A DNA stretch of 64,000 nucleotides. Source: Lentimicrobium sp. L6. Lineage in GTDB: Bacteria > Bacteroidota > Bacteroidia > Bacteroidales > UBA12170. The stretch spans positions 1-64,000 of the forward strand of contig NZ_JABKCA010000018.1 of NCBI RefSeq assembly GCF_013166655.1, in the 5' to 3' direction. The notes below the pieces were generated by a model. The model did no database searches and had not been told where the DNA came from. It saw only the letters and a list, made by a program, of their open reading frames with translations. Positions 5,714-21,187 of the stretch are shown here, piece after piece. How positions within the stretch are numbered: position 1 is the stretch's first letter; each line of letters starts with the position of its first letter. The translations under genes were made by a program, and so were the position numbers.

Positions 5714-7039
5714 TTAGACTCTCTTTAAGCATTTTGGAATATGAACATGAAAGGTTGTTCCACGGTCTGTATTCTGCTCATACCAAATGCTTCCATTCAT
5801 AAAGTTGACAATTTTTTTCGACATGGTCAGTCCCATTCCAATACCATCAAACTTTCTATTATGACCAGATTCCACTTGTCTGAAATTCTCAAAAACGGCA
5901 TCACCATGAGAATCATGTATTCCAATTCCCTTGTCCCTTACGCTAATCACCAATCCAGATTCATGAATTATTTCACCATACATTAATACAGGTTTATTGT
6001 CTCCAAATTTTACTGCATTTTCCAGAATGGCGTTTACTACAGATTCTAGTTTTTCATATTGTATATATAAATATTGACTCTTAATTTCCTCAGAAAAATT
6101 GATTTCCAATTCTGCATTTGGTTTGTCATGTCTGCTTTTATAAAGATCGAAATTGGAGAAGTTTCTGTGAATAAATGTTTTCATACCCACTTTTTCTATT
6201 TTACCTAAATCAGCCTTAGATTGCAACTCACTAAATTCTAAAATACTACTCAAAACTTTTAAAAGTTGGTACCCTTGTCGATTAATAGATTCAGCAGCTA
6301 CTTTAGTGTCTTCGTCATCAGGCTCATCAAGTAGAATGTCACTAAAGCCAATAATCCCATTTAACGGAGTTCTTATTTCATGAGACATGGTACTTAAAAA
6401 ACTAGTTTTAATCCTGTCACTTTCTCTACTTTTTTCTAGGGCTTTTTGAATTTGTTTTTTTTCCTCTAGTAACTTCTCATTATAATCATTAATAAGATAA
6501 GCACCAATAGTTGCAAGTAAAGACATGGAACTTAAAAATAGCATATTATTGAAAAAAGTAGGGAAATGGGGACCGTTTGTACTAAATAATAACATATTTT
6601 GCAATGTAATGGCAAAGTATCCATAAACAATAATTGTTATGGAGGAAAAAACAATAATGATTTTATAATTGAGTTTAAAAATAAATGCAGCCCAAAGAAT
6701 AACCAGAATTAATCCAACATAATAGTCATCATGCCCTTGTTCTTGCGGATATGCATTAAAAATCATTAAAAAAATACCTAATTGAGCAACTGACACTAAG
6801 AATGTGGTAAAAAGTCCTAGGAAATTATGGAACCTTCTCTGATAGGAAAGAATAAATGGGACGATGAGTGTTGGGCCAACTAGGTAAAAACGAATATTCC
6901 ATGCAAGTTCATGTGTTTCTGGTAACATATAATAGTCTAGAAATCCATAGACAGAATAGAGTATAAAACCTGAAATAATACCTACCCTAAAAGTCTTAGG
7001 TATTATATTGGCTTGGTTAATGAAGTCCTTGGTTGACAT
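5714..7039 (-). CDS. membrane sensor histidine kinase (orphan)
   Basis: The 441-residue protein has about six hydrophobic segments between residues 18 and 183, with short loops and no large periplasmic domain. A short coiled coil (185-208) leads into a HisKA domain with the H-box MSHEIRTPLNG (phosphorylated His220). The HATPase domain has an N-box (NAILENAVKFGD), a G1 box (VRDKGIGI) and a G2 box (GIGMGLTMSKKI). It is therefore an active-looking class I histidine kinase whose membrane region probably senses a lipophilic or membrane signal. No response regulator is adjacent. The nearest receivers are the GH130 fusion to the left and the stand-alone receiver at 12222, and either could be a partner, though this is speculation. 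Confidence 0.92.
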   Translation of the reverse strand: MSTKDFINQANIIPKTFRVGIISGFILYSVYGFLDYYMLPETHELAWNIRFYLVGPTLIVPFILSYQRRFHNFLGLFTTFLVSVAQLGIFLMIFNAYPQEQGHDDYYVGLILVILWAAFIFKLNYKIIIVFSSITIIVYGYFAITLQNMLLFSTNGPHFPTFFNNMLFLSSMSLLATIGAYLINDYNEKLLEEKKQIQKALEKSRESDRIKTSFLSTMSHEIRTPLNGIIGFSDILLDEPDDEDTKVAAESINRQGYQLLKVLSSILEFSELQSKADLGKIEKVGMKTFIHRNFSNFDLYKSRHDKPNAELEINFSEEIKSQYLYIQYEKLESVVNAILENAVKFGDNKPVLMYGEIIHESGLVISVRDKGIGIHDSHGDAVFENFRQVESGHNRKFDGIGMGLTMSKKIVNFMNGSIWYEQNTDRGTTFHVHIPKCLKRV

Positions 7040-7161: not shown

Positions 7162-7548
7162 ATGAAAGACTATAAAGCTTATTTTCAGATTAAAGCAGAA
7201 CCACAAGATGTATTTACTGCCCTGACAAATCCATTTACTATAGAATTGTGGTCAGGCGACAAAGCAGAAATGAGTAAGGAAATTGGTTCTGAGTTCTCTT
7301 TATGGGGTGGAGATATCGTAGGAAAAGTACTTGAAGTTATAGAAAATGAGAAAGTAGTACAACAATGGTATTTTGGTGACGAAGATGATGAAAATCCCAG
7401 TATTGTTACCATGAAAATTTGGAAAAAAGGAGGAGGTTCAAGTGTAGAACTTAATCATACTAATATTCCTGGGGAGGCTTTTGAAAATATAGTAGAGGGT
7501 TGGGAGGAATCATATCTTGGTGCAGTTAAAGCATTATTGGAAATTTAA
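7162..7548 (+). CDS. SRPBCC (START/AHSA1-like) domain protein
   Basis: I start at the ATG at 7162, giving 128 residues, because the ORF upstream encodes only a hydrophobic non-homologous stretch. The sequence begins KDYKAYFQIKAEPQDVFTAL and carries the AHSA1 pattern (LTNPFTIELWSGDKAEM, EFSLWGGDIVGKVLE, VQQWYFGD, GWEESYLGAVKALLE). SRPBCC proteins form a helix-grip fold with a deep hydrophobic pocket for lipids or polyketides, or act as Hsp90-activator homologues. Its stop codon overlaps the next start by one base, so it is probably co-translated with the RetSat-type oxidoreductase. That coupling favours a role in binding or modifying a hydrophobic substrate over a stress role. Confidence 0.85.
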   Translation: MKDYKAYFQIKAEPQDVFTALTNPFTIELWSGDKAEMSKEIGSEFSLWGGDIVGKVLEVIENEKVVQQWYFGDEDDENPSIVTMKIWKKGGGSSVELNHTNIPGEAFENIVEGWEESYLGAVKALLEI

Positions 7549-9056
7549 TGGTTTCAACTAGTAAATACGACATTATAGTTATTGGAAGTGGTTTGGGCGG
7601 ATTGGTTTCTGCAGCTGTTTTAGCTAAAAATGGACTTCGTGTATTGGTATTGGAGAAAGGGAAGAAAATAGGGGGGTTATTACATACTTTTAAGCGTGAG
7701 CATACCATCTTTAATACAGGGATGAACTATATTGGCGCACTTGAAGAGAATGGCTTTTTACATCAGTACTTTAAATACTTAGGGATATTAGATAAGCTTC
7801 ATCTTAAGAGATTGGATATGGATGGCTTTGAGGAGCTTAGTTTTGCAAATAACTCCAAGACTTTTTATTATGGTCAAGGCAAAGAAAACTTTAAACAGCA
7901 ATTAGTACAATCTTTTCCTCAGGAAAAATCTGTTATTGATCAATACACCAATAAACTATGGAAAATTACCGATAAATTTCCTCTTCTTTATTTAAATAAT
8001 TATGACCAAATTAAAAAAGGAGAGGATTATTTGAATGGAGGAGCCTTTGAGTATATCTCAACTTTACAGGCAAGTGATACATTAAAGGCTGTACTTGGGG
8101 CAACCAATTCATTATATGGTGGAGTGAAGGGGAAAACACCACTCTATGTCCATTCATTGGTAAACCGACAGTTTATTGAAAGTGCTTGGCGTTTTGTTGG
8201 TGGAAGTCAGCAATTAGCTAATGCTTTAGTAGAAGTGATACAGAAGGCGGGTGGAGAAGTGATAAATCGATCTAAAGTGGTTACCATTTCCACGGAAGAT
8301 TCTGATAATACTTGGATAGAAACGGAGGAAGGAAATAAATATTATTCCAAGAATATTATATCAAATATTCATCCTGCTCAAACCATGCAAATGATTGAGG
8401 ATAGAAGGATTAAAAAAGTGTATCGGAAACGAATTAATGATTTGCAGAACACAACTAGTTTTTTCAATCTGTATTTGGTATTCAAGCCTAATTCTTTTCC
8501 ATACTCTAATCGCAACTTTTATCATTTCATGGATAATCGCGTTTGGGGATTACAAAATGCAGATAACTGGCCTAATTTCTTTTTATTCTATACAGGATGT
8601 TCTACACAAAATCAAAAATGGGCCGATAATGCAAATATTCTTACCTATATGAATTATAACGAATTAGGGGAGTGGAGAGGGACTCAAAAAGGAATGCGTG
8701 GTGAGGGTTATGAAGATTTTAAAAATAGAAAAGCGGAAAAGCTTTTGGTAGAATTAGAAAAAAAATTCCCTGGAATTAGATCTAAAGTCCAATCTTGGTA
8801 TGCCGCAACGCCATTAACATATGAACATTATACTGGCGCACCTCAAGGCTCAGCCTATGGTATAGAAAAAGACCATAATAACCCCTATAAAAGTATCATT
8901 CTTCCGAAAACTAAAATTCCTAATTTGTTTTTCACTGGACAGAATTTAAATATGCATGGAGCATTAGGTGTCACTATTAGTGCTATTTTAACCAGTGCGG
9001 AAATTCTAGGTTATGACTATTTGCTTCAAAAAATAAGAAAAGAAGTCTCCTTATGA
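7548..9056 (+). CDS. RetSat/CrtI-type FAD-dependent polyene oxidoreductase
   Basis: The 502-residue flavoprotein has an N-terminal dinucleotide-binding motif (IVIGSGLGGLVSAAVLAKNG, then VLEKGKKIGG) and the C-terminal FAD-contact segment of the phytoene desaturase superfamily (FFTGQNLNMHGALGVTISA). Length and layout fit all-trans-retinol 13,14-reductase or carotenoid isomerase/desaturase homologues, which reduce, desaturate or isomerise conjugated polyenes. It sits between the SRPBCC gene (1-base overlap) and the C45-type gene (ATGA overlap of 4 bases), forming a compact operon. As I recall, similar oxidoreductases and C45 proteins occur in flexirubin clusters, so this operon may act on the aryl polyene made by the cluster at the right end of the window. 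That link is inferred. Confidence 0.85.
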   Translation: MVSTSKYDIIVIGSGLGGLVSAAVLAKNGLRVLVLEKGKKIGGLLHTFKREHTIFNTGMNYIGALEENGFLHQYFKYLGILDKLHLKRLDMDGFEELSFANNSKTFYYGQGKENFKQQLVQSFPQEKSVIDQYTNKLWKITDKFPLLYLNNYDQIKKGEDYLNGGAFEYISTLQASDTLKAVLGATNSLYGGVKGKTPLYVHSLVNRQFIESAWRFVGGSQQLANALVEVIQKAGGEVINRSKVVTISTEDSDNTWIETEEGNKYYSKNIISNIHPAQTMQMIEDRRIKKVYRKRINDLQNTTSFFNLYLVFKPNSFPYSNRNFYHFMDNRVWGLQNADNWPNFFLFYTGCSTQNQKWADNANILTYMNYNELGEWRGTQKGMRGEGYEDFKNRKAEKLLVELEKKFPGIRSKVQSWYAATPLTYEHYTGAPQGSAYGIEKDHNNPYKSIILPKTKIPNLFFTGQNLNMHGALGVTISAILTSAEILGYDYLLQKIRKEVSL

Positions 9057-10693
9057 AATTAAAGAAAGTAATTGCTTTGATATTCCTATTGATATTGTCA
9101 TTTTTATTGATGACTCTACTTTGGGGCTTCAGTATTAGTCAATTAGAGGAGCCTGAATTAGCAGCATTTGAGATTAATAAGGAAGAATTGACTCAATGGA
9201 ATGATACTACTTTCCAATATCAAGATGCTTGGTTACGGAAGAATAGATTTGGATTATGGGAAATGTATATTTCAGGAAGTCCTGAGGAATTAGGCATCAA
9301 AAATGGAATCTTAGCTCAAAACTTAATCAAATATCAGGAATACGCATTTGTCAAGCAAATTAAAAAGATGATTCCCTCAGAATCTTATCTTAATTTCTTA
9401 AAATACGTCCTCTCGTTTATAAACTATCAATTGCCTGAACGTATTCCAAATGAATACCTAAGGGAAATAAAAGCCGTATCTTTATTTGCTTCTGAAGATT
9501 TTAACTTCATTGGGGATAATTATGCTCGTCAACTTAATTACCATGCGGCTCACGATATTGGACATGCCATGCAAAACCTACACCTAGTTGAATGCACTGC
9601 TTTTGGCGTAAATAATGGTCGGTCTTCTGATTCTAGCCTCCTCATAGGGCGTAATTTTGATTTTTATGTGGGTGATGAATTTGCGAAAAACAAAATCATC
9701 TTATTTGTAAAACCAGAAACAGGATATTCTTTTGCCAGTATTACTTGGGGAGGGATGATTGGAGTTGTAAGTGGCATGAATGATCAGGGATTATCGATTA
9801 CTTTGAATTCTGCCAAATCAGAAATTCCTCTTTTTGCGAAAACACCAGTTTCTATCATTGCTAGAGATATTCTTCAATATGCCTCTAATATTGAGGAAGC
9901 CTATGAGCTAGCTCAAAAGTATAATTCTTTTGTTGCTGAAAGCTTCATGATTTCTTCAGCTAAAGATAATCAAATGGCTATTATCGAAAAAACTCCTGAG
10001 CAAACTATTTTGTATCATACATCAGAGGATGAATTAATTTTAACCAACCATTTTCAAAGTGAGGAGCTTTCTAATTCAGAAATTAATCTAGATAATATTA
10101 AGGAGAATGTAACGGATTATAGATTTGATAGGGTAGAGGAGTTGTTGGAAGAGCAAAATAAGTTTAACGAGTATGACTTTGCAAGAGTATTGAGGGATAC
10201 CAAGGGATGGGCAAATGAAGATATTGGACTAGGTAATGAGGGAGCCATCAATCAGTTGATAGCTCATCATTCTATCATCTTTAAACCCGAACAAAAAAAG
10301 TTTTGGATTTCTACTGCTCCCTATCAAATGGGTCCTTATTTATGTTATCAATTGGATAGTATTTTCCAAGAAAAGTATCCTCCATTCTTAAGCCATGATT
10401 TAGTGAATCATTTTATTCCGGCAGATTCTAATTTTCTATTGGAAGTCTATCCTAATTTTTTACAGTTTAAAAGCTTCAAAGATAAAATAGAACAGCATGC
10501 TCTGGTGGATATAGAGAAGCTGATAAATTCCAATCCTCATTATTTTTATACCTATGAACTAGCTGGCGATTATTTTCAAGTTCAAGGAAATACCAAAAGA
10601 GCTAAAGAGTATTATGATAAAGCCCTTGATTATTTTATTCCCAATCAGCATGAGGTAAATCGCATTAATGATAAAATCAGCAAAATGGAATAA
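9053..10693 (+). CDS. C45-type (acyl-CoA:6-APA acyltransferase-like) Ntn hydrolase with TPR-like tail
   Basis: This 546-residue protein has an N-terminal membrane anchor (residues about 5-28), then an Ntn-hydrolase domain of the C45/AAT family. The likely nucleophile is Cys181 in LVECTAFGV, followed by the strand motif LIGRNFDF and a GVVSGMNDQGLSITLN segment. The C-terminal 60 residues contain a single TPR-like helix pair (AGDYFQVQGNTKRAKEYYDKAL). In autoprocessing C45 enzymes the nucleophile usually follows Gly; here it follows Glu180, so self-cleavage may not occur or may differ. The gene overlaps the RetSat-type gene by 4 bases. An acyl hydrolase or acyltransferase acting on a lipid-like ester or amide at the outer face of the inner membrane is the best guess. 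Confidence 0.8.
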   Translation: MKLKKVIALIFLLILSFLLMTLLWGFSISQLEEPELAAFEINKEELTQWNDTTFQYQDAWLRKNRFGLWEMYISGSPEELGIKNGILAQNLIKYQEYAFVKQIKKMIPSESYLNFLKYVLSFINYQLPERIPNEYLREIKAVSLFASEDFNFIGDNYARQLNYHAAHDIGHAMQNLHLVECTAFGVNNGRSSDSSLLIGRNFDFYVGDEFAKNKIILFVKPETGYSFASITWGGMIGVVSGMNDQGLSITLNSAKSEIPLFAKTPVSIIARDILQYASNIEEAYELAQKYNSFVAESFMISSAKDNQMAIIEKTPEQTILYHTSEDELILTNHFQSEELSNSEINLDNIKENVTDYRFDRVEELLEEQNKFNEYDFARVLRDTKGWANEDIGLGNEGAINQLIAHHSIIFKPEQKKFWISTAPYQMGPYLCYQLDSIFQEKYPPFLSHDLVNHFIPADSNFLLEVYPNFLQFKSFKDKIEQHALVDIEKLINSNPHYFYTYELAGDYFQVQGNTKRAKEYYDKALDYFIPNQHEVNRINDKISKME

Positions 10694-11037
10694 TTCTGAG
10701 CTTCTCGGTAATTACTATGTTTTATTTCATTTATAATAGCTTTATCTTTCAATAATTTCAATTTTTGAATCTTTTACCAATTTCATGGTTTTTATCCAAA
10801 TTTCAAAATCGAGCTATTTTTAACTAGTGTACATGGTATTGTTTATAGGAAAACATCCAAAATAAGATACGATTCTCAAATTGGGAAAGTGTAGGCTTAA
10901 GATATTTTTTTAACTATCATAAAATGAGTATTATAGCTATGTTGGCATGTTTGTTGAAGAATTGAGGTGTTCAGTTTAGATACTGATAAAGCAAAGAGTT
11001 AATCAAAATCAAAAGGTCATTTGACAAGAATTATTGG
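10694..11037. other. intergenic region, no gene seen
   Basis: These 344 bases between the C45-type gene and the exopolysaccharide-like operon are A+T rich with stops in all frames. They must contain the operon's promoter and perhaps a leader. I see no convincing TAnnTTTG box, hairpin or small RNA signature here. Confidence 0.5.
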
Positions 11038-12225
11038 ATGAAAAAGCAAATAATTTCTATATTTCTATTATTACTCTTGATATGTATTCCATTGATATCT
11101 TGGTTGTTCTGGTACGGGCAAGAGGATAAGGAATTAAGTGTTTTAGTAGTGGATAAGACTGTCTTAAATAAGGATGTCCAAGAGCATAGTTCTCTAAATT
11201 GGATTCTGAACCATGAAAGATATGTAAAAGCGAATGGTGATCTTTATAATCCAGAGCTCGACTATTTTGGATTTTTCCCTGATGAAAAAGGAGGATACGA
11301 AGTAAATGATTTTAATGATTATAAGGAGTATCAACTAGATTCTTTGGTAAATGCATACGATATGCTTTACTATACTGATTTATATGGAATATATGTTGCT
11401 GAATGGTGGGATGCTTATCCAAATGTTGCACCGATGAATTATAAGAAATTACCTCCAATGGAGCGATCAAGGCATATATATGGCAAGTTGACTCCCTCAG
11501 AATTATATGTTTTAAAGGGGATGAAGGAACAGAAGAAACTCATCATGACAGAATTCAATATCATAGCTTCACCTACAAATAAAAGAGAAAGAAAAGAATT
11601 TGAAGAAATGTTTTCCATGGAATGGAGTACGTGGGTAGGAAGATATTTTGATATTTTAGATACTGCTGTAAACTTGGAGCTGCCAGGTTGGGTAAAAAGA
11701 AATTATGTAAATCAATATGGAGAATGGCCATTTGAGAAATCTGGGATAGTTTTTGTAAGAAACGATGATAGAATAGTGATAGTGGAAAATGGAATTCACC
11801 TTGAGGACGAAGTACCATATATTCATACTTCTGATAATTATTGTGAGGAATATGATTTACCTGAGGTAATGAAGTATCCTTTTTGGTTTGATATCTGTTA
11901 TTTTTATGATCCCAATGTGGTTATTTCTAATTATCACTTAAGCTTGAATAAGGAAGGGGATTCTATATTAAATCATTTTAATATCCCAACAGTATTTCCA
12001 GCTGTGGTTAAAGGAGAAGGCGATTATCCATTTTATTATTTTGCAGGAGATTTTTCTGACAATCCCATTGGCTTAAAGTCCTCTAAATTTACTAAGTCAA
12101 GCTGGGGAAGTTCGTTTGCCTATTCAAATGTACCACAAGAAAGAGTTAGTTTTTTCTGGGATTTTTATAAACCCTTAACTACAAAAATTGTAAATGATTA
12201 TTACTCAAAAATTCAAAAGCGATGA
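11038..12225 (+). CDS. membrane-anchored extracytoplasmic protein of unknown function, first gene of polysaccharide-type operon
   Basis: The 395-residue protein has one N-terminal hydrophobic segment (about 4-26) without an obvious cleavage site, so it is probably tethered in the inner membrane facing the periplasm. The rest opens with a strand motif SVLVVDKTV and is rich in aromatic residues (YDMLYYTDLYGIYVAEWWD, a TEFN segment, TWVGRYFD and WWDAYP motifs). It has some flavour of the beta/alpha deacetylase or glycosidase-like modules seen in exopolysaccharide operons, but I recognise no family and assign no catalytic residues. Its stop overlaps the receiver gene start by 4 bases, so it belongs to the six-gene operon that ends at 17437. 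Confidence 0.7.
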   Translation: MKKQIISIFLLLLLICIPLISWLFWYGQEDKELSVLVVDKTVLNKDVQEHSSLNWILNHERYVKANGDLYNPELDYFGFFPDEKGGYEVNDFNDYKEYQLDSLVNAYDMLYYTDLYGIYVAEWWDAYPNVAPMNYKKLPPMERSRHIYGKLTPSELYVLKGMKEQKKLIMTEFNIIASPTNKRERKEFEEMFSMEWSTWVGRYFDILDTAVNLELPGWVKRNYVNQYGEWPFEKSGIVFVRNDDRIVIVENGIHLEDEVPYIHTSDNYCEEYDLPEVMKYPFWFDICYFYDPNVVISNYHLSLNKEGDSILNHFNIPTVFPAVVKGEGDYPFYYFAGDFSDNPIGLKSSKFTKSSWGSSFAYSNVPQERVSFFWDFYKPLTTKIVNDYYSKIQKR

Positions 12226-12629
12226 ATAACGATTTAGTATTTGTGAGTATTGTATCGGAGGATGCTGTATTTTCCAACACCATGGAATATATGTTCAAGA
12301 AATACTATGATGGTATTGTTGTGAAAATATATTCTTCCATGTTTGAATTGAGAGAATCGGTAATTACGTCTAAGTCCGACTTGATTCTAGTTGATGAAAT
12401 TGTAACTGGAGGAGCCATATTTGAGGCCATCTCTTATTTACGTCAGAACCGAAGAGAAACTTGTAGCATCCTATATTTTGGTGTGGATGTTCATGATATG
12501 AAAACCAAAGCCTTAAGAAGAGGAGCTAACTATTTTTATGAGAAACCCATCGACCCTCGAATGATATTATATGATTTGAAAAACAGTTGGATTTCATTGG
12601 AACAAAATGAATTTAATGCTACTATATGA
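12222..12629 (+). CDS. stand-alone response-regulator receiver protein
   Basis: The 135-residue single-domain protein has a receiver fold order: N-terminal strand FVSIVSEDAVF (acidic pair Glu/Asp), strand LILVDEI with the phospho-acceptor Asp, LYFGVD in place of the usual Thr/Ser strand, and the C-terminal YEKPIDP with the conserved Lys. The position normally held by Thr/Ser appears to be Gly, so it may be phosphorylated but signal differently. It overlaps the genes on both sides by 4 bases (ATGA), so it is produced with the exopolysaccharide machinery and may gate it allosterically. No DNA-binding domain is present. Confidence 0.82.
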   Translation: MNNDLVFVSIVSEDAVFSNTMEYMFKKYYDGIVVKIYSSMFELRESVITSKSDLILVDEIVTGGAIFEAISYLRQNRRETCSILYFGVDVHDMKTKALRRGANYFYEKPIDPRMILYDLKNSWISLEQNEFNATI

Positions 12630-14338
12630 GAAATAAATTATACCTATTCATCATTGTGTTGAATTTGATGTTTATTCAAATTTCCTTTGGACAGCTGAAC
12701 GCCGATTCATTATTAAGTCAGGCTTCTCAATTGGCATTGGATGGAGAATATGATGAGGCCCTGATCAATTTAAATACACTATTAGAGGACGAACCCAATA
12801 GGATAGATGCTAATATCATGGCAGCCAATGTAAATGCTTGGAATGAAGACTATATGACAGCTAAATATTTTATTGGAGTTGTAAATAGATTAGACAATAC
12901 CAATCAACAGATGTACGATAGTTGGTTGAATATACTGTTATGGAATTCTGAATATAAAGCTTTATTAGACCTTGTAGAAGTTGCTAAGAATGAGGGTTAT
13001 GAAAATGATTATAATCTGAATTTAAAGAAACTTTATGCTTATCAAAATTTGAATCAATATAATAAGGCTGTTCAACAGTTTGAAGATGTAGAGGTTAAGA
13101 AGCTTTTGGATTCAGTTCCTATGCAGGAGGCTTACGATAATATGTTATTGGCAAAAAATAGAATGACTAGAGATTCTTTATTAGTGAAAGCACATGAGGA
13201 GGCCATAAAAGGAAATTATCCTACTGCGATTAAAAATGCGGATTCTGTTTTGAATATTTTCCCTAGTAATCTAAGTGCTTTAGTTATGAAAGCGAAATCT
13301 TATGCTTGGCAAGGAGAGTATGATAGTGCAAAAATATATATAGACTATGCCTATAAAAATGAACCCAAAAACGAAGAGCTTTATGATATTTGGTTAAATA
13401 CACTATTGTGGAATCAAGAATATAATGAAGTGATTAACACAGCAGACCTTGCGGAAAAGAATGATTATGCTAATGATTATAATTTAGCACAGAAGAGGCT
13501 TTATGCTTATAATGGTTTAATAGAATATGATTCTGCAGTTAATGTTTTTGAACCAGAGGAACAAAAGCCGTTGCTGGATTCTACTCCTTTGTTTAATGCT
13601 TATAGAGATATCTTAATAAAGAGTAAGAAAAATACGATTACTGGATATTACGCCATTGATTTATTTGATAATAATGATCCTAAACCACAGCATTTAGCCT
13701 ATATCGATTATGGTTTTAAGATAAAAAAGAATATGCTTATTTTTAGATTAAATTATGCCAATCGATTTGGAACTGATGGAATACAAGTGGAGGTAGATTA
13801 TTACCATATGCTAAAGAAATCAAAATATTTCTATTTTAATTATGGAATATCTGTTATGAATGAAGTATTTCCAAAACATAGAGCAGGTATTGAATATTTC
13901 TTCCCATTAAAACTTAAGTTTGAAGCCTCAATTGGAGCAAGGTATATGTATTTTACTGATAAGCATGTTCCTATTTTAACCGGACATATTGGTAAATATT
14001 TAAATAAATATTGGTTTGCTTTCAGGCCTTATTATACAATTGATGAAAATGGAAATTCTATTTCTTTTGTTGCAAACGTAAGAAGGTTTGGAGATATTTC
14101 CTTTAATTATTGGGGTGTAGAACTGGCTTATGGTAATTCTCCCGATGAAAGATATCTACTTGATCCTATAGGGGATTATTTCAATTTAAATTCTTATCGA
14201 ATTAAGCTAGAAAAAAGCTTAATGGTGACCACAACAAACGATTTGAAAATATCATTTGGCTTTGCTTATGAAGAAACGGCCAAAAGTGTATTTAGAAACC
14301 GTTATACTATTGAAATCATTTATAAACACCGATTCTAA
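12626..14338 (+). CDS. TPR-repeat protein with C-terminal YaiO-type outer-membrane beta-barrel
   Basis: The 570-residue protein has a signal peptide (cleavage near SFGQ) and two copies of a roughly 155-residue TPR-containing block (about 25-175 and 185-330). Each copy holds NAWNEDY or YAWQGEY, SWLNILLWN or IWLNTLLWN, and NDYNL..K+LYAY. The C-terminal half (about 335-570) is alternating amphipathic strands matching the YaiO-like outer-membrane barrel family and ends in Phe (YKHRF), as barrels recognised by BAM do. A TPR plus barrel layout resembles PgaA/AlgK-AlgE-type export modules, so this is probably the periplasmic scaffold and outer-membrane pore for the polysaccharide made by the GT2 encoded two genes downstream. 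It is coupled to its neighbours by 4-base and 1-base overlaps. Confidence 0.85.
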   Translation: MRNKLYLFIIVLNLMFIQISFGQLNADSLLSQASQLALDGEYDEALINLNTLLEDEPNRIDANIMAANVNAWNEDYMTAKYFIGVVNRLDNTNQQMYDSWLNILLWNSEYKALLDLVEVAKNEGYENDYNLNLKKLYAYQNLNQYNKAVQQFEDVEVKKLLDSVPMQEAYDNMLLAKNRMTRDSLLVKAHEEAIKGNYPTAIKNADSVLNIFPSNLSALVMKAKSYAWQGEYDSAKIYIDYAYKNEPKNEELYDIWLNTLLWNQEYNEVINTADLAEKNDYANDYNLAQKRLYAYNGLIEYDSAVNVFEPEEQKPLLDSTPLFNAYRDILIKSKKNTITGYYAIDLFDNNDPKPQHLAYIDYGFKIKKNMLIFRLNYANRFGTDGIQVEVDYYHMLKKSKYFYFNYGISVMNEVFPKHRAGIEYFFPLKLKFEASIGARYMYFTDKHVPILTGHIGKYLNKYWFAFRPYYTIDENGNSISFVANVRRFGDISFNYWGVELAYGNSPDERYLLDPIGDYFNLNSYRIKLEKSLMVTTTNDLKISFGFAYEETAKSVFRNRYTIEIIYKHRF

Positions 14339-15570
14339 TGATGACATATATTCTTAGTAATATTCGATTTTTAATTGGAAGAGTGTTTATAGTACTATTA
14401 ATAGGACTTATAATCTTTCTTACATATTTCTTTTATGTTCCCAGTGTAAGGATAGGAGATTACCAATTGATTAATCCCGTATATCAATACTTTGAACACC
14501 TAGATTGGTGGATACATATCTTGGTATATATTAGTATTTGGTCATTTATTGCTGCTTTGTTTTTTGTCATAGCTAGTGCCTATTTTATATATGTAAAAGA
14601 GAAACAACAGCAGAATGCAAAAGCATATGAAAAAGCTTTTACCGAAAAGATGATTGAGTTTTTGTATTCTGATTATTTTGATGAAGTCAATAATTATAAA
14701 GATATCTATAAGTATTTTAGAAAAAATGTAAAGAGCAATCTTGCTACTGAAGTATTTTTTAGCGTGATAGTTCAAACTCAAAATTTGATTTCTGAAGATT
14801 TTAGATATAAGTTTACCCAACTCATGGAGGATGCTAGAATTAATAAACGATTGAAATATTTCCTTTATTCTCGTAATATCAGTAAAAAGATCATAGGCTT
14901 TAAAATAGCTTCCTATTTGGGAATTAATGGTTATGAGCGTCAGATTTCTAAATATATTACCAGTAAAAATTATGCCCTTAGATATGAGTCTATTGTGGCT
15001 TATGTTAGGCTTTCAGAAACAAATAACCTAGACTTCTTGTTAACTCAAAAATACCACCTTTCTAAACTTACTATAAATACCATCTATAATGCGATAGATA
15101 GAAGTTTAAAGGTGAATAATACCAATTATCAGGATATGATAAAATCTCCTTCTTCAAGATTGAGTGTAACAGGTTCATTATTGGTTAGTGCAAATGAAAA
15201 TAGAGATCAAAGAGAATTAGTAAAATCAGCATTGGAAGATAATGATGATTTATTGAGAGAAGTTGCTTGGGAATTGTATACGAGTAATGAACAATCTGAA
15301 GTAGATATCGACTTCCTATTGACCAAATATGAAACAGAAAGCCAGGAGAATAAATTACATATCATGAAGGCTTTGTCTAAAGTTGATTTAACCGAACGGA
15401 TTACAGAGTTTCTTGATACTGTAATTAAGAATGATAGTATTTTACTTAAAGTATATGCACTTAGAATGTTATTTGAGCATAATGTCACCCAGTTTTTTAA
15501 ATATCAAGAAATGGATGATGAAAGAATTGCATTGGCTTGTCGTGAAGTGGCAGACTTTAACATTATATAA
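14338..15570 (+). CDS. membrane protein with HEAT-like helical repeats
   Basis: The 410-residue protein has two transmembrane helices (about 8-35 and 58-83) followed by about 320 mostly helical residues. Its pattern of paired helices (IISKKIIGFKIASYLGINGYERQI, then YALRYESIVAYVRLS, then DLLREVAWELYTS) is that of HEAT/ARM repeats. The soluble part should be cytoplasmic. It overlaps the barrel gene by one base, and the GT2 ATG is 6 bases downstream. A scaffold that ties the synthase to the receiver or hemerythrin-like protein is a reasonable inference. The repeat unit is visible, but no specific family is recognised. Confidence 0.75.
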   Translation: MMTYILSNIRFLIGRVFIVLLIGLIIFLTYFFYVPSVRIGDYQLINPVYQYFEHLDWWIHILVYISIWSFIAALFFVIASAYFIYVKEKQQQNAKAYEKAFTEKMIEFLYSDYFDEVNNYKDIYKYFRKNVKSNLATEVFFSVIVQTQNLISEDFRYKFTQLMEDARINKRLKYFLYSRNISKKIIGFKIASYLGINGYERQISKYITSKNYALRYESIVAYVRLSETNNLDFLLTQKYHLSKLTINTIYNAIDRSLKVNNTNYQDMIKSPSSRLSVTGSLLVSANENRDQRELVKSALEDNDDLLREVAWELYTSNEQSEVDIDFLLTKYETESQENKLHIMKALSKVDLTERITEFLDTVIKNDSILLKVYALRMLFEHNVTQFFKYQEMDDERIALACREVADFNII

Positions 15571-15576
15571 TTGATT

Positions 15577-17010
15577 ATGACCTTACTTTTTACATTTTCC
15601 GATATATTTAGCAGTTTCTTTCTGATATATGCATTGATATTATTTATTATTTATGTACTTATCTCTATTCTTTCTACTGTTGAATTAAGGCGTTATGTTA
15701 ATAAGAATAAATATTTCGATTATAGAAGTATTTTAAGCTATAAGAACCTCCCCAGTATTTCTATTATTGCTCCTGCCTTTAATGAAGAAAAAAGTATCAT
15801 CGAGAATATTAGAAGTCTCTTATCCATTTATTATCCTCAAATCAATGTTATTATTGTAAACGATGGTAGTACTGATGATAGTTTGTCAAAGGCCATTGAA
15901 CACTATGGACTTATAAAGGTGGAAATGGCAATAGAATACGAGGTGAAATCTAGTAAAATTAGAGGCATTTATCGTTCTATACATAGTGAATATGCCAATC
16001 TTATTTTAGTAGATAAAGAAAATGGAGGAAAAGCAGATGCTTTAAATGCTGGTATCAATGTGTCGAGGAGCGATTTATTTGTAGCTGTAGATGTGGATAG
16101 TATTATTGAGCCCGATGCGGTATTAAGACTGGTGAAACCATTTCTAGAAGAAGAAAGAGGTAGAAAAGTAATTTCATCTGGAGGAGTAATTCGAGTAGCT
16201 AATAATTGCGAAATTAAAGACGGAAGAATTACTAAAGTTAGGTTTCCTAAAGCGTTATTAGTGAAGTTTCAGGTTCTAGAGTATTTTAGAGCTTTTACTT
16301 TAGGTAGAATGGCTTGGAGTAAAGTGGATGGATTATTGATTATCTCAGGTGCCTTTGGAATGTTTGATAGAAATATTGTAGTGGCAGTGGGTGGATATGA
16401 TCGTACTACTGTAGGGGAAGATTTGGAAATTGTAGTTCGCATGAGAAAGTATATGCGAAATGAATTGAAAATGAAATATAAAGTGGCATTTATACCAGAT
16501 CCTTTATGCTGGACAGAAGTACCTTCCTCGTTTAAAATACTATCTCGCCAAAGAAATAGATGGACAAGAGGAGCTATTGATACCATATTGAAACACAAAG
16601 ACATGATGTTTAATCCGCGTTACGGTAGAATTGGTATGGTGAGTTTTCCATATTGGGTCTTGTTTGAATGGTTAGCCCCAATTGTAGAGGTAATTGGAGT
16701 TGTATATTTTATAATTTTGATAATACTTGGAGATGTAAACTCTAGTAGCTATCTATTATTATCATTATTCGTATTGTCTTTCGCCTTTGCTTTTTCCATG
16801 TTAGGTGTTTTATTCGAGGCTATCATGTTTAATAAATATAAAGGCTATGGATATTTGCTTCAAGTGATCTTTTTTGCTCTAATTGAAGTTATAGTGTTTC
16901 ACCCATTAAATGTGTATTTTGCTATTCGAGGGAACTTTAGCTTCTTCATTAAAAACAACCAGAAGTGGGGTGAGATGACACGTACCGCTTTCGATAGTGA
17001 GAATAAATAA
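15577..17010 (+). CDS. processive family 2 glycosyltransferase (exopolysaccharide synthase)
   Basis: I take the ATG at 15577 rather than the in-frame TTG at 15571, giving 477 residues. One N-terminal transmembrane helix is followed by a GT-A catalytic domain: SIIAPAFNEEKSI, VIIVNDGSTDDS, the DxD region AVDVDS, GEDLEIVVRM, and the processive-synthase signature QRNRW. Three or more C-terminal transmembrane helices (about 370-450) complete the PgaC/hyaluronan-synthase layout. The QxxRW motif argues for polymer synthesis rather than single transfer. Its substrate (GlcNAc, Glc or other) cannot be read. The next gene starts just after this stop. The coupled TPR-barrel gene upstream supplies a plausible export route. 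Confidence 0.9.
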   Translation: MTLLFTFSDIFSSFFLIYALILFIIYVLISILSTVELRRYVNKNKYFDYRSILSYKNLPSISIIAPAFNEEKSIIENIRSLLSIYYPQINVIIVNDGSTDDSLSKAIEHYGLIKVEMAIEYEVKSSKIRGIYRSIHSEYANLILVDKENGGKADALNAGINVSRSDLFVAVDVDSIIEPDAVLRLVKPFLEEERGRKVISSGGVIRVANNCEIKDGRITKVRFPKALLVKFQVLEYFRAFTLGRMAWSKVDGLLIISGAFGMFDRNIVVAVGGYDRTTVGEDLEIVVRMRKYMRNELKMKYKVAFIPDPLCWTEVPSSFKILSRQRNRWTRGAIDTILKHKDMMFNPRYGRIGMVSFPYWVLFEWLAPIVEVIGVVYFIILIILGDVNSSSYLLLSLFVLSFAFAFSMLGVLFEAIMFNKYKGYGYLLQVIFFALIEVIVFHPLNVYFAIRGNFSFFIKNNQKWGEMTRTAFDSENK

Positions 17011-17017
17011 AAAAATT

Positions 17018-17437
17018 ATGGTATTACCTAAAATTATAAAGCGCACTTGGAATGATGCCTATTTAGTTGGTATCACAAGTGTTGATAAGCAACATGAAGA
17101 ATTATTAGATATTCATGATGAAATACGAGACTTAAGCGATACGAGAGTAGAGAATCATAAAGAAGGATTGAAAAAAATACTCCAAGAACTTGAGAAGCTC
17201 ACTGAAAAATATGCCAGTGTTGCTCCTGAATTACTGGATCATGATAATCAAACTCAAATCAATAAATACGTAAGCTCTTATCAGGATTTTATTAGAAAAG
17301 TTGATGAGTTTGGTCGTGCTTATACCTATAGAAATACTTTTCTATTAAAAGACATGCAAGATTATATTAAGAAATGGACCATATCTCATATCATGCAAGC
17401 TCGAACCATTAGGCGCCAGATCAAAACCAATAAATAA
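17018..17437 (+). CDS. hemerythrin-like protein with missing metal ligands
   Basis: Starting at the ATG at 17018 (139 residues; an upstream GTG at 16997 would overlap the GT2 gene), the sequence opens with the bacteriohemerythrin signature WNDAYLVGITSVDKQHEEL. Four helices can be followed to the C-terminal KKWTISHIMQARTIRR. In iron-binding hemerythrins the last motif reads WLxxHIxxxD; here the Asp at +5 is Arg. The second-helix HxxxE/HFxxEE segment is not recognisable either (ELLDHDNQTQ is all that remains). It therefore probably keeps the four-helix fold but not a normal di-iron site. As the last gene of the exopolysaccharide-type operon it may be a signalling or structural partner rather than an oxygen binder. 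Confidence 0.75.
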   Translation: MVLPKIIKRTWNDAYLVGITSVDKQHEELLDIHDEIRDLSDTRVENHKEGLKKILQELEKLTEKYASVAPELLDHDNQTQINKYVSSYQDFIRKVDEFGRAYTYRNTFLLKDMQDYIKKWTISHIMQARTIRRQIKTNK

Positions 17438-17606
17438 TTTGTAGATTGGGAAAAAGATTATCAATTCAATGTTTTGATAACTGAACATGCCGATAATGTA
17501 TTTGTAAATTAGATTTATCCAATAATATGTTTTCACTGTAAATGAGTTTATATATCTTGTATTTTAGATGATAAATACATTAAAAATATGTGATATCTTT
17601 TTTGAT

Positions 17607-17614
17607 TATCTTTG
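17607..17614 (+). promoter_or_regulatory. Bacteroidota-type -7 element (TATCTTTG)
   Basis: The octamer matches the TAnnTTTG consensus and lies 88 bases before the CotH-family gene ATG at 17702. No clear -33 TTG partner is visible at the expected spacing, so this is a weak call. Confidence 0.35.
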
Positions 17615-17701
17615 AAATTTATATCAGAATGTTTGTGTTATAGCTACTTTATAAGCAAATACAGTTATTAATATTTTTTAAAGTTTAATATTACTATAAA
17701 A

Positions 17702-20700
17702 ATGAAGAATTTTTGCCTGAAATATATATTCGTTATTGTTTTTGTTTTACAAGTTTCTGTTGTTTTGTATGCTCAAGATATTCGGATTAATGAAGTGGTT
17801 TTAAACAACAGTATTACATCAGATGAGGATGGGAATTCTCCTGATTGGTTTGAGCTATATAATTATGGAAACACCCCTATTGCTCTTCACAATTGGAAAA
17901 TAACAGATGATGAATCTGATTTGTCTAAATGGAGCTTTCCAGATATTGAATTATATCCCAATGAGTATATCTATTTATGGGCCTCTTCAAAAGATATAAA
18001 TACCTGTTCTTACCCAAGAACTATCATCAAGCAATTTGATGTGTTTAAATATATAATCCCTACTTCGGAGCCTTCAGCTTCATGGACTAGCCTTAATTTT
18101 AACGATTCGGGTTGGGAAGAAGGAGGGTCTGGATTTGGTTATGCTGATGGCGATGACGAAACTATTGTGCCCGAAGGAACAAAATCTGTTTTTGTAAGAA
18201 AAACATTTATTGTGGAAGAATATGATGATATTAGCTCATTAATACTCCATATAGATTATGACGATGGTTTTGTAGCTTACATTAATGGAATAGAAGTTGC
18301 AAGGGCAAATATAGAAGGTTATCCTCCTGAATTTGATGATGGTACCCCAACGGATCATGAAGGTCAGATGTCTGATGGTGATAGTCCAGACCAATTTGAT
18401 GTAGAGAATCCTTTAGACCTTCTTAATGATGGCGAAAATGTATTGGCTATACAAGTTCATAATCAAGAAAGCTCCTCTTCTGATTTAACCTTAATCCCAT
18501 TTTTATCAATAGGTTATTCTAGCAATCATCCTATTGGGATTCAACCTCCAGCTATTTTAAACCTTTCTCCTGTGGCTCTTCATACTAATTTTAAGCTTTC
18601 AGCTGATGGTGAAACATTAACATTAAGCAATCCAAATTTAGACATTATAGATCAGTTTGTAGCAGGTAGGGCTCCGGCAAATATGGCACAAGGCATTTCT
18701 TCTGCTGGAAATCAAGTATATCTTAGTGAACCTAGTCAGGGAGCTGTTAATAGCGGCCCTGAATATCAAGGGTATATTGAAGAGGCAGTTGTGTTTTCAG
18801 AATTAGGAGGTATGCTTAGTGGAAGTATTAACCTTTCTCTTTCTGGGCAGACACCAGGCCAAGAAATTAGATATACCACTGATGCTTCTTTGCCAACGAT
18901 CACTTCCACACTTTATACATCACCTTTGTATATTGATAGCACCACAGTGATTAGAGCAAGTATATTTCAGCCTAATTATTTCACCGCTGGCCCTTTTAGT
19001 AATACTTATGTATATAATAGCAACCATGAATTGGATGTCATGCTACTCACCACTGATCCCGTGAATTTCTTTGATGAAGAATACGGAATTTATGTACTAG
19101 GAGAAGAGGGCACCTATGATGAAGATTCTCCACACTGGGGAGCTAATTTCTGGGAAGATTGGGAAAGACCTATTCATGCAGCTTATTATAAAGCAGGTAG
19201 CAATGATATAGCTATAGAATTTAATGCAGGAGTGAAAATATATGGTGGATATAGTAGAGGACAAAATGAACAAAGATCTTTAGCGTTTTATGCAAGAAAA
19301 AAATATGGAGTATCAAAGTTTAAATATCCATTTTTTGATAAGCTCCCTTATGATGAATTTGAGGCTTTTGTGCTTAGAAACTCTGGCCAAGATTGGTTGA
19401 TTTCATCAATAAAAGATGCAGCATTAACTAGCTTAATGGAAGGTTCGGGTCTTGATTATCTTGAATTCCAACCCGTTGTTACTTATTTGAATGGAGAGTA
19501 TTGGGGAATGTATAATATGAGAGAAAAAACCAATGAGCATTTTTTAGCCTCAAAACACGGTGTAGATCCAGATGAAATTGTAATTTTAGATGCAGACAAC
19601 CAAGAAGGCCATGGGTATAACGAAGAATATGCTGCCTTATTAGACTATGTTGAAAATACAGATTTAAGTATTAATGAAAACTTCAATTATATAGAAGAAC
19701 AAATAGATATATCTAACTTTGCTGTATATCAAGTAGCCCAAATATATTATAATAATAGCGATTGGCCAATTCATAATCTTAAATTATGGAAGTATCCAGA
19801 AGGAAAGTGGAAATGGATTTTATATGATTTAGATTTTGGTTTTGGCCCTTGGTGGCAAACAAATAGTTATTGGGAGAATGCTTTGTTTAGAGCTTTGGAT
19901 CCAATTGGAGAAGAATATCCAAATCCTAAATGGTCAACATTATTGTTTAGGCAGTTGATTGAAAACTTAGGTTTTAGAAACCAATTTATTAATCGATATG
20001 CTGATGAGTTAAATACTCGTTTTTTACCTGAAAATGTGATCTCTCATTTTAATGAACTTTCAAATAATATTCAATCAGAAGTTGATGATCACTATACTCG
20101 ATGGGATGCTTTTTCCATTGATCAAGAATACTATGTTTCTGAAATGAATGATTGGGCTGAAGCTAGACCTAGCCGTGCGAAAGAGCATATTATGGAACAA
20201 TTCGATTTGCCTGCTATGCATCAATTAACGATTGATATTGAGGATGTTTCGCAAGGATTGGTTGAGCTTAATAATAACTTAAGGATACAATCACTGTCTT
20301 GGTCAGGAGAATATTTTGAAACGGTTCCAGTTATTCTAAAAGCAATTCCAGAATTAGGTTATACATTCTCACATTGGTCTGGAGCAAGTACTTCTACAGA
20401 GAGTGTAATAAGTATTGATTTAGAAAGCTATACTTTGGTATCTCCTCATTTTATTGAGACTACAGTAGCTCCTTTGCTTATAAACGAAATTAATTATAAT
20501 TCGAGTGACGATCATGATGCTGATGATTGGATAGAAATATATAATCCTAATGAAGAGGAGGTTGATGTTTCAAATTGGCAAATTAGGGATGAGCTTGATG
20601 TGAATTCTTTTACCTTTCCGGTATCTACTTCTATTGCAGCTAAAGGATATTTGGTGATTGCTAAGGATGTAGAAGATTTTGAATCGGTATTCCCTAATGA

Positions 20701-21187
20701 TATTAATCATATTGGTGATTTGGGATTTGGTTTAAGTGGTGGAGGAGATGCCGTTCGTTTGTTTAATGATCAGGGTATTTTGCATGATATCGTGGTGTTT
20801 ACCGATAGTTTGCCTTGGCCAATGTGTGCTGATGGAGCAGGTCCAACAATGGAACTAATAAATCCAGATTTAGACAATTCTATTGCAGAAAACTGGGATT
20901 GTGTAAATGATTTTGGTAGTCCTAATTATGAAAACTCCAGAGCATTTGGCATAGAGGAAACTCCAGTAAGTCAGATTAGAACCTATCCCAATCCGGTTAA
21001 CGATAGACTATATATAACAGGTCTAGAGGAGGCTGTTGAAATGAATATTTATAATATTTCTGGGCAATTGGTTTTATCAACTCATGCTCAAAACTACATG
21101 AATGTAAGCCATCTAGAATCAGGGATATATATACTTAATATCATCAAAGGAAAAGAGCTATCTACCCATAAGTTAGTAAAAAGGTAA
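17702..21187 (+). CDS. large secreted CotH-family protein with lamin-tail domains and T9SS sorting signal
   Basis: The 1161-residue protein has a signal peptide (cleavage near LYAQ). The domains in order are: a lamin-tail domain (about 27-110, INEVVLNNS, DWFELYN), a jelly-roll segment (about 125-260), a chitobiase C-terminal-like beta module (about 370-440, IRYTTDASLPT), a CotH-kinase-like region (about 445-830, with MREKTNEHF, NNSDWPIHNLKLWKYP and WILYDLDFGFG), an InlB-like repeat (FSHWSGAST), a second lamin-tail domain (about 915-1010, INEINYNSSDD, DWIEIYNP) and a type A T9SS tail (YPNPVNDRLYITG to LVKR). CotH proteins are atypical secretory kinases. Here T9SS should place the protein on the cell surface or outside. 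It is monocistronic with long flanking spacers. Confidence 0.88.
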   Translation: MKNFCLKYIFVIVFVLQVSVVLYAQDIRINEVVLNNSITSDEDGNSPDWFELYNYGNTPIALHNWKITDDESDLSKWSFPDIELYPNEYIYLWASSKDINTCSYPRTIIKQFDVFKYIIPTSEPSASWTSLNFNDSGWEEGGSGFGYADGDDETIVPEGTKSVFVRKTFIVEEYDDISSLILHIDYDDGFVAYINGIEVARANIEGYPPEFDDGTPTDHEGQMSDGDSPDQFDVENPLDLLNDGENVLAIQVHNQESSSSDLTLIPFLSIGYSSNHPIGIQPPAILNLSPVALHTNFKLSADGETLTLSNPNLDIIDQFVAGRAPANMAQGISSAGNQVYLSEPSQGAVNSGPEYQGYIEEAVVFSELGGMLSGSINLSLSGQTPGQEIRYTTDASLPTITSTLYTSPLYIDSTTVIRASIFQPNYFTAGPFSNTYVYNSNHELDVMLLTTDPVNFFDEEYGIYVLGEEGTYDEDSPHWGANFWEDWERPIHAAYYKAGSNDIAIEFNAGVKIYGGYSRGQNEQRSLAFYARKKYGVSKFKYPFFDKLPYDEFEAFVLRNSGQDWLISSIKDAALTSLMEGSGLDYLEFQPVVTYLNGEYWGMYNMREKTNEHFLASKHGVDPDEIVILDADNQEGHGYNEEYAALLDYVENTDLSINENFNYIEEQIDISNFAVYQVAQIYYNNSDWPIHNLKLWKYPEGKWKWILYDLDFGFGPWWQTNSYWENALFRALDPIGEEYPNPKWSTLLFRQLIENLGFRNQFINRYADELNTRFLPENVISHFNELSNNIQSEVDDHYTRWDAFSIDQEYYVSEMNDWAEARPSRAKEHIMEQFDLPAMHQLTIDIEDVSQGLVELNNNLRIQSLSWSGEYFETVPVILKAIPELGYTFSHWSGASTSTESVISIDLESYTLVSPHFIETTVAPLLINEINYNSSDDHDADDWIEIYNPNEEEVDVSNWQIRDELDVNSFTFPVSTSIAAKGYLVIAKDVEDFESVFPNDINHIGDLGFGLSGGGDAVRLFNDQGILHDIVVFTDSLPWPMCADGAGPTMELINPDLDNSIAENWDCVNDFGSPNYENSRAFGIEETPVSQIRTYPNPVNDRLYITGLEEAVEMNIYNISGQLVLSTHAQNYMNVSHLESGIYILNIIKGKELSTHKLVKR

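Follow-up and report, generated by a model that had tools for sequence, protein, structure and literature searches.

A candidate exopolysaccharide system with a receiver, a HEAT-repeat protein and a processive glycosyltransferase in Lentimicrobium sp. L6

Described systems and the Lentimicrobium cluster

To our knowledge, the regulation of processive polysaccharide synthases is discussed nearly always in terms of cyclic diguanylate (c-di-GMP). Here, we examine a six-gene cluster of Lentimicrobium sp. L6, located at positions 11038-17437 of a 64,000-nucleotide stretch of contig NZ_JABKCA010000018.1 (the whole stretch is hereafter called the window). Judged from its sequence, the cluster very probably directs both the synthesis and the export of a sugar polymer at the cell surface. 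Its core consists of a stand-alone receiver (REC), a membrane-anchored HEAT-repeat protein, and a glycosyltransferase family 2 (GT2) synthase, and this core crosses phyla and domains, which makes the finding larger than the preliminary description of this DNA had stated.

Several described systems resemble the cluster in part. The NfrB–NfrA–YbcH exopolysaccharide system of Escherichia coli likewise combines a GT2 synthase carrying QxxRW, a tetratricopeptide repeat (TPR)-rich outer-membrane barrel, and a membrane-anchored periplasmic protein (PMC8669469). The window cluster has such a TPR-containing barrel within its operon. Unlike NfrB–NfrA, it also has a receiver and a HEAT protein, and its GT2 lacks the MshEN c-di-GMP domain, a defining feature of the E. 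coli system. Its first gene product, U395, has no detectable similarity to YbcH. In the E. coli yaiS-yaiP-yaiX-yaiO locus, a YaiO barrel adjoins a GT2, as in the window; that locus possesses a deacetylase and an acyltransferase fragment, lacks HEAT and receiver genes, and its YaiP is only remotely related to the cassette GT2 group. PgaABCD and IcaADBC contain a related processive GT2, and systems of the Pga type export their product through a TPR barrel. Unlike in Pga/Ica, no c-di-GMP control is possible by the usual parts in the window's genome: neither GGDEF nor PilZ is matched anywhere in the 96.5%-complete assembly. The preliminary description had seen no PilZ or c-di-GMP module, a remark that now extends genome-wide. 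The cluster differs from the cellulose synthase system, Bcs, both in this absence of PilZ and in its synthase, as the window GT2 scores 40.5 bits with the CelA model TIGR03030 against a cut-off of 699.1.

More distant comparisons come from gram-positive Pel clusters, which include CotH/DUF4956 accessory genes and for which kinase-type control has been proposed in streptococci (PMC7112168). The likeness lies in the placement of CotH beside the synthase; the differences lie in another synthase and accessory set, and the portion of that report drawn on here describes no HEAT–GT2 pair. A zetaproteobacterial stalk cluster (PMC8250860) was considered and set aside as a different, c-di-GMP-linked system. 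A search of the open-access literature, by word matching only, found no published HEAT–GT2–receiver system by name, parts, or relatives, which agrees, within that limited search, with the earlier statement that no named system of this composition was known.

The six open reading frames (ORFs) run consecutively on the + strand, with successive overlaps of 4 bp, 4 bp, and 1 bp before the remaining genes abut, so the earlier account of genes that overlap or nearly touch holds. The order is U395 (11038..12225), the receiver (12222..12629), a TPR protein with a YaiO barrel (12626..14338), the HEAT protein (14338..15570), the GT2 (15577..17010), and a hemerythrin-like protein (17018..17437). For the GT2, the probable start is ATG 15577, not TTG 15571, the first possible codon; for the hemerythrin-like gene it is ATG 17018, as the copy at locus L017 suggests. 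A gap of 7 bp, and no overlap, would therefore follow the GT2 stop. Scans for the Bacteroidota -33/-7 promoter pattern and for terminators performed no better than on shuffled sequence, and thus the ends of the operon are not defined.

The 479-aa GT2 matches PF13641 (E=8e-21), and its other Pfam matches are only GT2-type or sub-threshold. It possesses DGS, DxD (as DVD), GED, and QRNRW motifs together with several transmembrane (TM) segments, as expected of a processive-type synthase, and QxxRW and DxD occur in 46 of 46 GT2s examined. The product of 12626..14338, the putative exporter, exceeds the cut-offs of both YaiO models (PF19413, E=2e-52, 178 bits against 23.9; TIGR04390, 1.5e-42, 146 bits against 32), has TPR matches alongside the barrel, and is the only YaiO match in the window's genome. 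The cluster thereby pairs a processive GT2 bearing TM helices and QxxRW with a TPR/barrel exporter, the combination that marks synthase-dependent exopolysaccharide systems. These parts fit the synthesis and TPR-barrel export that had been suggested at the outset.

The cassette across Bacteroidota and beyond

A search with the GT2 profile alone was positive for 40 of 295 Bacteroidia genomes and for 70 of 296 genomes sampled phylum-wide. We compared 66 neighborhoods: 60 were chosen by a GT2 match blind to the neighbors, the window and its two copies from the same genus make up another three, and a HEAT query supplied the last three (L018-L020). HEAT lies directly upstream of GT2 in 62 of these loci, with a median gap of -4 bp, that is, an overlap. 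YaiO occurs close by in 55 loci, and the counts for a stand-alone receiver, U395, and a large (hybrid) kinase are 46, 21, and 17, respectively. The same-order relatives recovered with the HEAT query retain REC–YaiO–HEAT–GT2. As a control, no HEAT gene was found in 11 neighborhoods of other GT2s, all paralogs, of the window's genome. The labeling profiles were trained on the same loci, and the independent checks are Pfam and the NCBI annotation of plasmid loci. The preliminary description had proposed a Bacteroidota-wide search for the gene set and had taken scattered neighborhoods in relatives as the outcome that would count against a shared system; instead, the set is kept together.

The same GT2 group exists on plasmids of Alphaproteobacteria (Mesorhizobium, Erythrobacter, Devosia), Gammaproteobacteria (Legionella adelaidensis), Deinococcus, Bacillota (Paenibacillus, Planococcus), and three haloarchaea. 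In all 12 plasmid loci inspected, HEAT precedes and adjoins GT2; 10 of these HEAT genes are annotated by NCBI as "HEAT repeat domain-containing," and those of Emticicia and Paenibacillus were called with a custom profile. A receiver precedes HEAT in seven of the 12, including all three haloarchaea, which have the order REC–HEAT–GT2. All seven hosts that possess an outer membrane have TPR/YaiO, and all five that lack one are without it. This pattern, which is what an outer-membrane exporter predicts, would arise by chance in 1/792 orderings (about one in 800), for loci that are few and partly related. When the plasmid GT2s are ranked, the cassette group shows at least 31% identity (E <1e-60) and is clearly set apart, in score as in identity, from PgaC, IcaA, and NodC, with PgaC/IcaA at about 23-30%. 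A quick GT2 tree placed one outgroup inside, on a long branch.

Receiver, HEAT protein and accessory proteins

The receiver match is weak but real (Response_reg, PF00072, 31.0 bits against a cut-off of 30.2), and the alignment retains the acid pair, Asp58, and Lys108. The Thr/Ser switch position is occupied by Phe in the window and in its same-genus copies L016 and L017, and by Thr or Ser in the other aligned relatives. The window receiver therefore lacks one member of the canonical CheY-like set (acid pair, Asp, Thr/Ser, Lys), and this substitution suggests that receiver switching is probably altered in the window's genus. In other loci, kinase or Hpt genes are frequent neighbors of the cassette, and at L053 a receiver is joined to a hybrid kinase directly before HEAT–GT2. 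Control by phosphorylation, as originally proposed, is thus favored by the L053 fusion and by the kinases that often adjoin the cassette in relatives, and is weakened in the window's own genus by the Phe at the switch position.

The window HEAT protein itself has no Pfam match. HEAT_2 is matched by 31 of 33 aligned homologs, and the predicted model is all-helical, with a low-to-middling predicted local distance difference test (pLDDT) score of 64. Foldseek searches with this model returned only HEAT/ARM and designed repeats at low template-modeling scores, a result consistent with the fold without proving it. The homolog matches and the all-helical model with its HEAT/ARM neighbors support the HEAT label, and through the homologs the earlier assignment of a HEAT-like membrane protein is sustained. 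Two TM helices are predicted in the window protein. Homologs have one or two at the N terminus, with positive charge after the last TM helix in 39 of 43, which predicts a cytoplasmic HEAT domain, alongside the receiver and the GT2 catalytic domain. Two of the 33 homologs bear a LysM domain (best E 4e-22).

U395 has one N-terminal TM helix (residues 5-23), is predicted to face outward, and matches no family. Its own family comprises 18 members with 41 invariant columns, again with no Pfam match; comparison with the PDB yielded two chance-level matches only, and an AlphaFold model built from only two near-identical alignment rows reached pLDDT 39. At a Paenibacillus locus (L127:1695-4796), a U395 domain (residues about 15-373) is fused to a second large domain just upstream of HEAT–GT2. 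That second domain has no Pfam match, appears TIM-barrel glycosidase-like by eye only, and is related to a 689-aa protein adjoining HEAT–GT2 in Planococcus.

The hemerythrin-like four-helix protein matches TIGR02481 (E=5e-15) and falls below the bacteriohemerythrin cut-off (NF033749, 53 bits against 84). By eye, two of the seven metal ligands of annotated bacteriohemerythrins are retained in the aligned window protein; both are lost in L016, and none is invariant among the three orthologs. We rejected metal-based oxygen sensing on account of the lost ligands. No locus outside the window's genus was seen to carry the gene, and the earlier view of its product as a subunit of the system is not supported.

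Downstream, a T9SS (type IX secretion system)-secreted CotH/LTD protein (17702..21187, + strand; PF08757, 2e-46, with LTD and Por_Secre_tail) is a possible accessory only. CotH recurs beside the synthase: shorter CotH genes lie inside the cassette or next to it in L054, L057, L059, L060, L062, and L066, and in Planococcus CotH is also found beside DUF4956. Other relatives carry CotH, DUF4838, or sulfatase/lipoteichoic acid (LTA)-synthase-superfamily proteins, which vary between lineages. U395 and these accessory proteins fit a role in chain processing or decoration. In L073, L075, L077, L084, and L124, the GT2 (1134-1260 aa) is itself fused to a sulfatase/LTA-synthase-superfamily domain, recognized by PF00884 in L073 and L084 and by a custom profile in L075, L077, and L124; these fusions suggest decoration of the polymer with phospho- or sulfo-groups.

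Further variants were observed around the cassette. In L079, L083, L084, L085, L086, L087, L088, and L130, the barrel gene downstream of GT2 is followed by one for a DUF4838 protein; L079, L086-L088, and L130, the last from a Bacteroides finegoldii plasmid, have a long barrel gene (937-1013 aa). A domain of roughly 600 aa without a Pfam family occurs in large proteins beside the cassette in seven loci (L016:5180-7756, L017:2040-4616, L020:5299-7935, L051:4422-7007, L019:15894-18536, L089:7304-10429, and L090:11189-14416), with a T9SS tail in L016, L020, and L051. The window's genome lacks this domain and has the CotH/LTD T9SS protein in the same slot. Upstream in the window, genes for a CrtD-like oxidoreductase (7548-9056) and a C45-type acyltransferase (9053-10693) are found beside the cassette only in the same-genus L016 and L017. 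Finally, a 644-aa ORF at 132-2066 combines a GH130-type phosphorylase with a receiver domain in a single protein.

Proposed mechanism and alternatives

We consider it probable that the cluster is a synthase-dependent exopolysaccharide system, analogous to NfrB–NfrA, in which a cytoplasmic receiver and HEAT module replaces the c-di-GMP module. The notion is that the GT2 would polymerize a nucleotide sugar and thread the chain across the inner membrane, the TPR-YaiO protein would conduct it over the periplasm and outer membrane, and U395, which would face outward from an inner-membrane anchor, may handle or modify it. HEAT would be a membrane scaffold in contact with the synthase, on which the small receiver could dock. 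Phosphorylation of the receiver by a partner kinase would then switch the synthase, in whichever direction, without c-di-GMP; in the window's genus, the receiver may work without normal phosphorylation. The L053 fusion, the frequent kinase and Hpt neighbors, and the lack of GGDEF and PilZ point to phosphorelay control exerted through HEAT on the synthase. Several observations weigh against this proposal. The window receiver lacks the Thr/Ser switch residue, and no kinase adjoins the operon, the nearest found lying at 5714-7039 on the opposite strand. The receiver is absent nearby in about one-third of the 66 Bacteroidota loci and so is not obligatory in cis. The window contains no sugar-nucleotide or polymer evidence, and the predicted structures of U395 and HEAT are too weak to serve as a test of contact.

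The same observations about the receiver invite another explanation, which we judge unlikely: a polysaccharide would still be made and exported by GT2, HEAT, and YaiO, and the receiver would be a single-domain relay or phosphate sink of a neighboring phosphorelay that controls operon transcription, with no contact to the synthase. Its absence from about a third of loci, its degenerate switch residue in the window's genus, and the proximity of hybrid kinases and Hpt genes to the cassette would all suit such a role. However, a DNA-binding domain is missing from the receiver, its gene lies within the operon and overlaps that of YaiO or HEAT, and it comes before HEAT even where YaiO is lacking, in haloarchaea. 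Other doubts concern the product. A diverged poly-N-acetylglucosamine (Pga/Ica-type) system might be suspected from the best NCBIfam match of the GT2, PgaC_IcaA (TIGR03937), from LysM on two HEAT homologs, and from the GlmS and sugar-phosphate nucleotidyltransferase genes adjoining the Halosolutus copy. That identity appears improbable: the match, at 138.6 bits, falls far under the cut-off of 422.3, the plasmid ranking separates the cassette group clearly from PgaC/IcaA, and the nine genes at 7548-21187 include no match to Polysacc_deac, the PgaB/IcaB-type deacetylase. Least probable, in our estimate, is a glycan-modifying or glycolipid system in which the GT2 transfers sugars onto a lipid carrier or a surface polymer already present, YaiO serves as a modification or anchoring barrel, and HEAT is an assembly chaperone. 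The sulfatase/LTA-synthase-superfamily domains that several relatives have next to the GT2 or fused with it would accord with this reading. Against it, QxxRW and DxD in every GT2 examined and the several TM segments of the window GT2 are as in processive synthases, the export partner is a TPR barrel, and the best curated match is to PgaC/IcaA.

Returning to the receiver-and-HEAT-controlled synthase, we advance a broader proposal tentatively, at somewhat less than an even chance. REC–HEAT–GT2 may be an ancient, cross-domain class of phosphorelay-gated synthases, in which a HEAT scaffold in the membrane relays the action of the receiver to the synthase itself; exporters in the outer membrane and modifiers in the periplasm would have been added to suit the host envelope. 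The window's genus would then be a derived form whose receiver has left the normal phosphorylation switch.

Another switch is needed in lineages without c-di-GMP parts, of which the window's genome seems to be an example. A receiver–HEAT module tied to one GT2 subfamily in both bacteria and archaea is a concrete, testable candidate, and the cassette marks a polysaccharide locus that could be recognized in very many genomes. The core trio points to a widespread, unnamed, c-di-GMP-independent means of switching polysaccharide synthesis.

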